A stretch of DNA of 64,000 nt from Planctomycetota bacterium (lineage in GTDB: Bacteria; Planctomycetota; Phycisphaerae; Phycisphaerales; UBA1924). The stretch lies in the NCBI GenBank assembly GCA_024276195.1, contig JAJRXR010000054.1, positions 1 to 64,000 of the forward strand, given 5' to 3'. Under the pieces are notes generated by a model. It saw only the letters and a program-made list of their open reading frames with translations. It did no database searches and was not told the DNA's origin. The position numbers and the translations under genes were made by a program. Each line of letters opens with the position of its first letter. Positions within the stretch are counted from its first letter, which is position 1. Shown in pieces: positions 7,873 to 9,859 of this stretch.

Positions 7873-7910
7873 GGGTGCCGTGGAGACGCCGTCCTCGGCT
7901 TCTCCACGAA
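7873..7910 (+). repeat. REP hairpin (copy A) upstream of the RAYT
   Basis: GGGTGCC tail (7873-7879), then a two-part hairpin: outer stem CGTGGAGA/TCTCCACG, a single C opposite T, inner stem GCCG/CGGC and loop TCCT. It ends 23 bp before the transposase start. Same family as 8494-8528, 8548-8581, 8609-8644, 9759-9859 and, more divergent, 59291-59375. Confidence 0.85.
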
Positions 7911-7931
7911 CAAGCGCGGTAGCATGGACCT

Positions 7932-8444
7932 GTGAAGCGGATCGAGCACCCGAACCACGCGCGATATCTCACTTTTTCGTGCTACCAGCGTCTACCGCTG
8001 TTTGTGAACGACGCGATCAAGGATGTGTTTGTGGAGCAGCTCCGCGCCACACGCCGGGAGCACGAGGTCCTGTTGCACGCATGGGTCGTGATGCCGGAGC
8101 ATGTGCACATGGTCGTTCGGGCGCACGCCGGTTCGAGCGTGCCCGACGTGCTGCGCACGCTCAAGACGGGCGTCGCCAAGCGTGTGATCGCGCGATGGCG
8201 TGAACTGGACGCCCCGGTGCTCGGCAAGATCGAAGACCCGAGGGGAGCCGTCCGGTTCTGGCAGCGCGGCGGCGGGTACGACCGCAACCTCGTCATGGGC
8301 GCCGAGCTGTTCGAGAAGATCCGGTACGTCCACGAGAACCCGGTGCGTCGGGGTTTGGTCAAACATACCGAGGACTGGGCGTGGTCGTCGGCGCGGTGGT
8401 GGTCGGGAGATCGGGAAGGACAGATCCCGTGTGATCCGGTCTGA
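7932..8444 (+). CDS. REP-associated tyrosine transposase (RAYT, Y1/HUH family)
   Basis: The 170-residue protein belongs to the IS200/IS605-like Y1 transposase family, RAYT branch, which nicks and joins single-stranded REP DNA. It starts MKRIEHPNHARYLTFSCYQRLPLF, the usual RAYT opening (strand 1, 'hvt.s.y.r.p.f'). The metal-binding HUH motif is in AWVVMPEHVHMVVRAH (~52-67). The candidate nucleophile Tyr is in RGGGYDRNLV (~113-122), followed by the family hallmark KIRYVHENPVRRGLV and a WAWSSARWW tail. Full length and without visible damage. It is flanked by hairpins of one REP family at 7873-7910 upstream and three copies downstream, the arrangement expected of an active or recently active RAYT. 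Confidence 0.93.
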   Translation: MKRIEHPNHARYLTFSCYQRLPLFVNDAIKDVFVEQLRATRREHEVLLHAWVVMPEHVHMVVRAHAGSSVPDVLRTLKTGVAKRVIARWRELDAPVLGKIEDPRGAVRFWQRGGGYDRNLVMGAELFEKIRYVHENPVRRGLVKHTEDWAWSSARWWSGDREGQIPCDPV

Positions 8445-8493
8445 CCACCAATCAGCCAAACCACCTATAGGGGCGCCGTGCAGATAGGGGTAG

Positions 8494-8528
8494 GGGTGCC
8501 GTGCAGACGCCGCCGCGGCTTCTGCACG
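8494..8528 (+). repeat. REP hairpin (copy B), GTGCAGA variant
   Basis: GGGTGCC tail then outer stem CGTGCAGA/TCTGCACG, inner stem GCCG/CGGC and loop CCG. Compared with copy A, the outer stem differs by G-to-C on one arm and C-to-G on the other, so pairing is kept. A truncated start of a further copy (GGGCGCCGTGCAGAT) lies at 8471-8485. Confidence 0.85.
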
Positions 8529-8547
8529 ACGAAGCGCAGGAGAGGTT

Positions 8548-8581
8548 GGGTGGCGTGCAGACGGCGTAAGCCTTCTGCACG
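8548..8581 (+). repeat. REP hairpin (copy C), diverged core
   Basis: Begins GGGTGGC, then outer stem CGTGCAGA/TCTGCACG, inner stem GGC/GCC and loop GTAA. The single C opposite T between the two stems is at the same place as in copies A and B, while the inner stem and loop have changed. Confidence 0.8.
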
Positions 8582-8608
8582 ATGGGCTACTGGGGGGTTG
8601 GACAGCCA

Positions 8609-8644
8609 CGTGGAGAAGCCGAAGACGGCGTCTCCACGGCACCC
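8609..8644 (-). repeat. REP hairpin (copy D), inverted orientation
   Basis: The reverse complement reads GGGTGCC tail, outer stem CGTGGAGA/TCTCCACG, inner stem GCCG/CGGC, loop TCTT. It points toward the transposase gene, so copies A and D bracket the RAYT in opposite orientation. Confidence 0.85.
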
Positions 8645-8685
8645 GGCAGCCAAATATTCGGACACTTCGCGTATCAGAACTCAGC

Positions 8686-9606
8686 CTAATCCATGGCGCG
8701 TTCATGCATTCCGCATGCAAAGACCAGCTTCACACCATAGAGCCCAGCGCGGACGTTTCCCTCGGGACCACCGATACGACTGTTATGAGGTGGCAACTGG
8801 CGTCGAACTACCCTGGCCGTCCCGCCGAGGCCGTCGACCATAGATTCCGAGGCTGGTATCCCGATGCTGTCAATCATTGTACCTCGTAAAGCCTTTCCCG
8901 AGTAATAGTCCCCTGTCCAAGCCCCGGTAATTGAATCATGCTCTCCCTCTGGGTTGAGCATGGCCTCCGCAATAATCCACTCCGACTCTGTCGGAATGCG
9001 AATCGGTAACCCGCTGTGTTCACGCACCCACTTGCAGAACCCCACGACTCCGCTCAAGGGCACGGAGTTTGCCGGGGCTTCGCTCATCGCAACGAACTCG
9101 CCTTGCGCAGCGTCATACTGGACAGATGAACCCGCGTATGTCCCTAGCTGATCTGACCCCTCCGTCTCCCCCACGCGATTGAGATACTCGGCATACAGCG
9201 CAGAGTCGATCAACTCTGGTGTCATATAGAATGCGTATGTTAGCTCAACCTGAACCATTTCCACCTCATCTGATCCTAGATCCGTTATTAATACCTGCTC
9301 AAGCGCACGGCCAATCGCCCTCCCACCTGGTCCACTCAGCTGGAGCGACCTCGGCGCAACTCGCACAAACTCGATCTCCTCACCTAGAATCTCCAGCACA
9401 AACTGATTCGAGTCGCACGCCTCTTCTGCCCGCATCAGCTCTGCCTCACTGGGCAAGTCCATCCCTTCGATGCCGACTGGCCAGACCAATGGCAGGGGCG
9501 TAGCAACGTCCTCTTCGGACGGCTGATTCCCTTCGGCCTTATGCCGACCTTGCTCGCATGAACAGGCAGCCGCGACAACGCTGACGGCAAACATGAACGC
9601 GACCAT
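8686..9606 (-). CDS. lipoprotein with FGE-sulfatase (SUMF1-like) domain, probably non-catalytic
   Basis: From the ATG at 9604-9606 (306 aa) the protein starts MVAFMFAVSVVAAACSCEQG, a lipoprotein signal with a plausible lipobox ending at Cys15. An in-frame ATG at 9711 would add 35 non-signal residues. The C-terminal part has the SUMF1/FGE signature order: ELTYAFYMTPELIDSALYAEYL, then GVVGFCKWVREHSGLPIRIPTESEW, and a closing RIGGPEGNVRAGLYGVKLVF ('fR.v.'). The usual GNVWEW is replaced by GGTARVV, and the paired catalytic cysteines of true FGE are not apparent, so it probably serves as a binding/structural version. Base composition is clearly less GC-rich than neighbours, and REP copies lie on both sides, suggesting acquisition. 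Confidence 0.72.
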   Translation of the reverse strand: MVAFMFAVSVVAAACSCEQGRHKAEGNQPSEEDVATPLPLVWPVGIEGMDLPSEAELMRAEEACDSNQFVLEILGEEIEFVRVAPRSLQLSGPGGRAIGRALEQVLITDLGSDEVEMVQVELTYAFYMTPELIDSALYAEYLNRVGETEGSDQLGTYAGSSVQYDAAQGEFVAMSEAPANSVPLSGVVGFCKWVREHSGLPIRIPTESEWIIAEAMLNPEGEHDSITGAWTGDYYSGKALRGTMIDSIGIPASESMVDGLGGTARVVRRQLPPHNSRIGGPEGNVRAGLYGVKLVFACGMHERAMD

Positions 9607-9758
9607 GCGCCTCACCACTAATCGGTTCAGTAGTCTTTCAACGGACCGTAGGGACGGGACGTGCCCGGGCCATCCTGTTCCGCAGGTCCAATTCCGAAGG
9701 AAGTGCAACATGCAACACAGTCTCCATTAAATTTATCTTGGCATTCATCTGATCCGCC
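9607..9758. other. AT-richer intergenic stretch, nothing recognised
   Basis: Upstream region of the lipoprotein gene, with compositional bias like that gene (for example around 9710-9745). It should hold the lipoprotein promoter, but I see no convincing -35/-10 pair. Confidence 0.4.
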
Positions 9759-9859
9759 GGGTGCCGTGGAGACGCCGTCCGCGGCTTCTCCACGACATTG
9801 GACGTGCGTCGGCGCCACATCATCGTGGAGAAGCCGAGGACGGCGTCTCCACGGCACCC
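9759..9859. repeat. complete REPIN: two inverted REP hairpins
   Basis: The left REP (9759-9795) is GGGTGCC plus outer stem CGTGGAGA/TCTCCACG. Its core is close to GCCG-TCC-GCGGC. The right REP (9824-9859) is the same unit inverted, with loop TCCT on its own sense strand, and ends GGCACCC. The spacer is 28 bp. It sits 15 bp after the sucC stop. Confidence 0.88.

Follow-up and report, generated by a model that had tools for sequence, protein, structure and literature searches.

The locus described here lies within the first 64,000 nucleotides of contig JAJRXR010000054.1 (hereafter, the window), from a draft genome of the planctomycete order Phycisphaerales, and raises the question of whether a gene for a REP-associated tyrosine transposase (RAYT) and the hairpins found on both sides of it belong together, with a population of repetitive extragenic palindromes (REPs), and of REPINs (REP doublets forming hairpins, i.e. 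two head-to-head REPs), of its own. Based on the evidence presented below, we consider it very probable that the locus is a REPtron, in which a single-copy RAYT is accompanied by its own REP/REPIN population. The overall anatomy of the system is ordinary; what appears new here are the foot, i.e. the short unpaired sequence 5' of the REP stem, and the RAYT clade.

The predicted protein reached 99.5 bits with NF047646 ("REP-associated tyrosine transposase", cut-off 80) and 33.6 bits with PF01797. The top match in the PDB for this RAYT, whose AlphaFold2 (AF2) model had a predicted local distance difference test score (pLDDT) of 95.4, was 4er8, the TnpAREP of Escherichia coli, with 19% identity across the aligned fold. 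The sequence carries the motifs PEHVH, FWQxGGGYDR and YVHENP, and residues H57, H59 and Y132, corresponding to the HUH motif and the single catalytic tyrosine of the IS200/Y1 fold, were present without exception in 76 aligned RAYTs (alignment A3, from which 5 of 80 RAYTs were excluded). The relatives used were the 80 best-ranking among at least 462 confirmed loci, and of these the ones bearing names came chiefly from metagenome-assembled genomes of Phycisphaerae and other Planctomycetota.

When folded as single-stranded DNA, all six hairpins of the window (REPs A to F; Table 1) showed an unpaired 6-nt foot (GGGTGC or GGGTGG) flush with an 8-bp outer stem, followed by one C·T mismatch, an inner stem of 3–4 bp and a loop of 3–4 nt, and only 0 or 1 of 200 dinucleotide shuffles per hairpin folded equally well. 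The full-length RAYT, the six hairpins of a single design and the bracketing of the gene by the inverted copies A (+) and D (-), all proposed in an initial annotation made from the sequence alone, were corroborated.

The HUH/Y1 fold and the hairpins found to the left and right of the gene would also suit an ordinary IS200/IS605 insertion sequence with subterminal hairpins, accompanied by derivatives resembling miniature inverted-repeat transposable elements. Such an element is extremely unlikely here, given that the draft genome (3.04 Mb, 88 contigs, 91% complete) contains one full copy of the gene against 64 hairpin sites, that the IS200 model NF033573 remained below its cut-off (30.5 vs. 55 bits) while the REP model passed, and that the tyrosine motif YVHENP differs from the Y---Q printed for subclass 1.1 in PMC6006769. 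A plain IS200/IS605 element was rejected because such a self-mobile unit would carry tnpA in several near-identical copies.

The whole genome was searched for the REP family of the window RAYT (hereafter F1) with a 19-nt pattern of tail and stem, allowing up to three mismatches, which yielded 71 matches (37 + 34), compared with a single one for the reversed pattern. A covariance model built from 53 copies, the search suggested in the initial annotation, likewise gave 71 hits, corresponding to 64 non-overlapping sites and including 23 REPINs. According to a crude test, 63 of the 64 sites were located outside coding-like open reading frames (ORFs). This intergenic distribution, together with the roles known for published REPs (PMC3733652, PMC2817692), speaks for selected transcription terminators or RNA-stability elements lying next to a RAYT by chance, an explanation that we regard as very unlikely: the foot was as conserved as the stem, head-to-head pairs showed a preference for 82 bp and for unlike arms, and members of this REP family also adjoined homologous RAYTs on both sides in other genera. 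The terminator version was rejected, as a T-rich tract (at least 5 T in 9 nt, on either strand) was found beside the hairpin at only 2 of the 64 sites.

Sorting by the fourth base of the stem resolved F1 into two types: type 1, with stem CGTGGAGA (GTGGAGA/TCTCCAC) and usually the foot GTGC, and type 2, with stem CGTGCAGA (GTGCAGA/TCTGCAC) and usually the foot GTGG. Feet were distributed as 25 GTGC, 8 GCGC and 7 GTGG among type-1 sites and as 20 GTGG, 2 GTGC and 1 GCGC among type-2 sites, with one further site unclassed (overall, 27 GTGG, 27 GTGC, 9 GCGC and 1 other), and foot and type were strongly associated (Fisher p 9e-8, for copies that share descent). The C·T mismatch, already described as fixed, was present in 52 of 54 copies of the filtered set, from which 10 of the 64 candidates had been removed for a wrong mismatch or tail (C66:34715 was also removed before alignment A1). 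The tail had been given as GGGTGCC but is not invariant: it reads GGGTGGC in REP C, and genome-wide its foot ends in C or G, with some GCGC. Paired stem changes exceeded those of all 500 shuffles (20 changed cells vs. 6.4; covariation score 0.187 vs. 0.060), and three pairs were changed on both sides, a number matched by 33 of the 500 shuffles. Independent compensatory evolution of the stem was rejected, as the two types and their hybrids explain most of the pattern; since the types occupy opposite ends of the same REPINs and hybrids are few, the stem change reflects mainly two lineages and not many independent events. The contrast drawn in the initial annotation between copies A/D and B/C therefore stands insofar as both arms change together, but B turned out to be a hybrid.

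The 23 head-to-head pairs of the genome measured 77–101 bp, 10 of them exactly 82 bp. Nineteen combined type 1 with type 2 and three joined two type-1 REPs, no type 2/type 2 pair was found among them, and one had a degenerate arm; as many unlike pairs were reached in 22 of 20,000 label shuffles. Moreover, in 15 of the 23 REPINs one foot ended in C and the opposite one in G. The same preference was seen in two genomes of the same genus (G001 and G002), where eight of nine pairs were heterotypic by stem. The single pair found in G024, from another genus, had unlike feet and like stems. Both arrangements occur in the window: the pair E-F, previously recognized as a complete REPIN, was confirmed and is homotypic, but the heterotypic pair C-D and a truncated half-REP had been overlooked. 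According to predicted folds, the 19 heterotypic REPINs formed two hairpins (11), one long hairpin (6) or other structures (2), while all three homotypic ones formed one long hairpin. Heterotypy may thus keep a REPIN from folding into one long hairpin, although the folds are no more than suggestive in this respect; a similar argument for unlike arms, involving SbcCD, has already been made (PMC3733652). The frequent heterotypy of REP dimers, for which there is no obvious explanation according to the same source, is a question on which the polar, unlike-armed REPINs of these same-genus genomes bear.

Table 1. Position and basis of the RAYT gene, REPs and REPINs identified in the window.
Feature	Position	Strand	Basis
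RAYT gene (HUH/Y1 REP-associated tyrosine transposase), 170 aa, GTG start	7932..8444	+	NF047646, PF01797, AF2 model, PDB match
Type-1 REP A with GTGC foot, 24 nt upstream of RAYT	7873..7908	+	pattern + fold
Truncated half-REP GGGCGCCGTGCAGATA (limited to foot and 5' arm of outer stem), just before REP B	8471..8486	+	sequence
REP B, hybrid: GTGC foot, type-2 outer stem, type-1 inner stem and tail	8494..8528	+	pattern + fold
REP C, type 2, foot GTGG (tail GGGTGGC), left arm of heterotypic REPIN	8548..8581	+	pattern + fold
Type-1 REP D with GTGC foot, right arm of heterotypic REPIN, right-hand bracket of RAYT	8609..8644	-	pattern + fold
Heterotypic REPIN C-D, 97 bp, beside RAYT	8548..8644	.	pairing + fold
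Type-1 REP E, left arm of homotypic REPIN	9759..9794	+	pattern + fold
Type-1 REP F, right arm of homotypic REPIN	9824..9859	-	pattern + fold
Homotypic REPIN E-F, 101 bp, predicted single long hairpin, -55.2 kcal/mol	9759..9859	.	pairing + fold

The association between RAYT and REP family was also observed in other genomes. The F1 covariance model gave any hit in 12 of 61 genomes, with 19 hits in G002, 9 in G001, 9 in G020, 7 in G012, 6 in G024 and none in G003 (60% complete), and at most two in each of the other 54; the hits in G012 belonged to a REP family of its own, with stem CGTGGCAAGC. Two other genera, represented by G020 and G024, carried RAYTs 60–68% identical to that of the window, with F1-family REPs on either side in inverted order (contigs C9 and C69, respectively), in agreement with the proposal that this RAYT has its own REP/REPIN family. 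Only type-2-like stems with GTGC feet were found in G020, including CATGCAGA/TCTGCATG, another paired change, and mainly type-1 stems in G024, so that the two types joined in the REPINs of the window's genus occur apart in other genera. On contig C9 of G020, the RAYT (L187, G020:C9:30869-31374; about 66% identical) was matched in two pieces in different frames between F1-like REPs, which points to either a broken gene or an assembly error.

On one side of the window RAYT there is a dimethylargininase-like (DDAH) gene, and on the other a 341-aa ORF without assigned family, followed by the gene for the beta subunit of succinate-CoA ligase (sucC). The ORF (8686–9711, minus strand) is placed between both REPINs of the window and had no match in Pfam and NCBIfam profile searches at E 0.001; by eye, its end may resemble that of formylglycine-generating-enzyme-like proteins. 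In the DDAH-sucC interval of G002 an F1 REPIN was present and the RAYT absent, while in G001 neither the RAYT nor an F1 REP was found at this locus. One base before the type-2 REP of G002, an open frame ends in REGELECDPV-stop, comparable to the REGQIPCDPV-stop of the window RAYT (21 residues, E 0.03). This frame may tentatively be read as a C-terminal remnant, and weakly suggests that a RAYT was once present at the locus and later lost; because of this possible remnant beside an F1 REPIN, the RAYT may have been inherited vertically and lost.

Such a history, the single copy of the gene and the degenerate state of several lower-scoring F1 REPs are in line with a RAYT domesticated for a host role, its REPINs being inactive relics of an older burst. 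We regard this as a real possibility, with less than even chances, as many type-1 copies were identical in stem and foot and F1 copy number differed strongly among genomes of the same genus.

Several observations weigh against the REPtron interpretation. Every count made within one genome is inflated by the shared ancestry of the copies, and the comparison of same-genus genomes provided no clean empty-versus-filled site for any single REPIN. G002 keeps F1 REPs while its two detected RAYTs adjoin other stems, with the sole exception of an F1 REP located some 180 bp away from one of the two, and no such hairpin pair was found beside the second RAYT of G024 (62% identical). Among 107 distinct RAYT loci, 44 had no inverted hairpin pair detectable by the method described below. 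Finally, across 41 RAYT loci the distance between stems rose with that between RAYTs, but the correlation was weak (Mantel rho 0.15, p 0.004), and the distance between feet was unrelated to it (rho -0.02, p 0.57); as the loci for this comparison and for the flank tests were restricted to those with GTG in both feet, foot invariance in them is partly due to choice.

A second REP family (F2, GTGC-CACTGACCCG) was represented by 37 matches in the window's genome, with paired stem variants (e.g. L086, L039 and L023). F2 was found within 70 nt of the type-2 side in 13 of the 23 F1 REPINs, five of which had it next to the type-1 side as well; no F1 REPIN had it next to the type-1 side only. Empty F2 pairs also exist (e.g. 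C39:12779-12844); the arrangement may stem either from the insertion of F1 REPINs into F2 REPINs or from the copying of an F1-F2 composite. The F2 pattern had matches in 10 of the 61 genomes, with many in G002 and G004, and no F2-flanked RAYT was found.

The foot was then compared across the RAYT clade, setting the REP strand motif-blind, from the conservation of the 6-nt flank between left and right copies. The 114 loci corresponded to 107 distinct ones after merging 7 duplicates, 63 of which had an inverted hairpin pair; the strand was decided for 44 (32 from planctomycetes, 1 from Myxococcales, 3 whose records name no phylum, 7 from genomes of the window's order and the window itself) and left undecided for 19. 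Their 88 feet comprised 67 GTGC, 10 GTGG and 11 others, with no GTAG, and the stem of the left copy started with C in all 44. In counts that include overlapping hairpins and both strands, GTGC or GTGG was found in 154 of 424 hairpins within 350 nt of the RAYT and in 28 of 232 beyond 700 nt, where GTAG occurred 6 times. A distant RAYT of the same order (L073 in G057, 26% identical) has REPs with the canonical foot, GTAG, at both its ends. The foot thus tracks the RAYT clade, not the host group. Short imperfect palindromes, intergenic, present in many copies and linked to a RAYT in three genera, the REPs of the window's genome conform to the general description of REPs; as a family they depart from the canonical rule (GTAG or GTGG foot, 0–2 nt from the stem; PMC6006769) and constitute a REP-like class with a shifted foot, outside the GTAG/GTGG class as defined.

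Two sister RAYTs of G019 (L122 and L123) are associated one with GTGG-CCGGGAACTGC and the other with GTGC-CCGGGTACTGC REPs, and represent a natural pair for tests of foot specificity. Arrays alternating GTGG-CATCGATCG and GTGC-CACTGCACG REPs, another polar two-foot family, were found at L055 and in G047 (268 pattern matches in the latter genome vs. 6 for the control).

The RAYT, an HUH/Y1 relative of IS200/IS605 enzymes, most likely made the REP/REPIN population. By homology with characterized enzymes, it would bind REPs folded in single-stranded DNA, such as that of the replication fork, recognizing the 5' foot GTG(C/G), the stem and the C·T mismatch. The catalytic tyrosine would make the cut close to the foot, and the enzyme may move or copy REPINs, mostly of about 82 bp, into intergenic DNA, one RAYT probably serving both REP types.

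Candidate cleavage signals were searched in the flanks by extrapolating the guide rule of Marinomonas (PMC8266576), according to which GTGC would specify G|C or G|A, and GTGG would specify C|C or C|A. Within the 24-nt 5' flank, enrichment was highest for G-C at positions -3,-2 before GGGTGC, in own type-1 feet (17/33, 3.0 expected) as well as in feet of other RAYTs of the clade (18/64, 5.2 expected; ~8e-4 after correction). In a test fixed beforehand, GTGG families showed T-C at this position (G019 12/25, G048 11/34), contradicting the extrapolated C-C or C-A; GTGC families were weak for G-C in G012 (3/15) and G047 (5/26), and own type-1 sites with a GTGG foot had G-G in 5 of 7. Own type-2 sites had C-A in 7 of 20, with a descent shared with the F2 composite, and a cruder test across the clade for a foot junction GC| or GCC| gave a weak signal (13/64 vs. 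3–10 at other offsets). The guide rule was thus only partly borne out. A code-like reading of the foot as a guide, with polar REPINs whose GTGC and GTGG ends set different cleavage dinucleotides, as the ends of IS608 do, appears doubtful in view of the T-C of GTGG families, the G-G of own GTGG sites and the weak signal in G012 and G047. TCTT, which includes C|T, the dinucleotide cut by published enzymes, was found no more than 8 nt 3' of the right-hand hairpin at 13 of 38 RAYT loci (3/38 at the left, 0–2/38 at control places), and is a candidate cleavage site at right-end hairpins; it was absent at REP D of the window.

No paper on planctomycete RAYTs with a GTGC foot was found in the literature search. 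Subscription papers lay outside its coverage, among them that of Bertels (2017), reportedly a survey of RAYT groups, so that the priority of the GTGC foot is uncertain. Figures and supplements aside, the string GTGC is absent from the main text of each of PMC6006769, PMC8266576 and PMC3733652, and it begins no word in the available text of PMC2817692 and PMC3686654. The tail and stem variants had initially been considered undescribed in a planctomycete genome, which agrees with the search as regards the GTGC foot; REPs from planctomycetes, as well as RAYTs, REPINs and heterodimers, are already in print (PMC3733652, PMC6006769, PMC8266576, PMC2817692, PMC3686654, PMC12306157, among others). Should the GTGC foot act as the guide throughout a planctomycete RAYT clade, REP catalogues based on GTAG or GTGG, the feet demanded by the REP predictor of PMC6006769, have missed a large natural set, since with 67 of 88 feet being GTGC such a predictor would miss most of the clade. 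In that case, many independent RAYT-REP pairs varying in foot, stem and protein would be available for a comparative test of cleavage-site choice, which was studied for three pairs in PMC8266576.

Among known systems, the REPtron of E. coli (TnpAREP, y and z REPs and BIMEs; group 2; 4er8) resembles the present one in that its HUH/Y1 protein has the same fold and is encoded by a single copy, and in that its REPs have an internal mismatch and a 4-nt foot directly adjoining the stem, with unlike REPs arranged head-to-head (y-z; PMC8266576). The enzymes of E. coli, Stenotrophomonas and Marinomonas bind the folded REP strand and not its complement, and the foot contributes to selecting the cut dinucleotide; in E. 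coli, an unpaired stem position matters (PMC8266576). Differences concern the foot, GTGC or GTGG here and GTAG, with no substitution tolerated, in E. coli (PMC8266576), and the protein motifs, PEHVH, FWQxGGGYDR and YVHENP here and DHLH, WE and YIHYNP in E. coli (Table 1 of PMC6006769). The C·T mismatch described here occupies the position of the bulge of E. coli REPs. Pseudomonas fluorescens REPINs, as reportedly described by Bertels and Rainey in 2011, likewise consist of head-to-head REPs with a spacer, in many copies and beside a RAYT. Unlike in those REPINs, the arms here mostly differ in stem, inner stem and foot. Most dimers of P. putida and P. entomophila are homodimers (PMC3733652). 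The GTAG superfamily (Di Nocera 2013, PMC3733652), with members reported from Planctomycetes and R. baltica, shares the head-to-head dimers, including heterodimers that differ in stems (P. aeruginosa GTAG-24) or loops; its tag is GTAG, with positions 2–3 degenerate in some families and GTGG in one Verrucomicrobium, and the main text makes no mention of C at position 4. With respect to TnpAY1 subclasses, compared by eye, PEHVH is not among the HUH motifs printed in PMC6006769, while the WQ motif, the YIxxNP-type tyrosine motif and the long REPs are shared with subclasses 2.4, 2.6 and 2.7 (Table 1 of PMC6006769).

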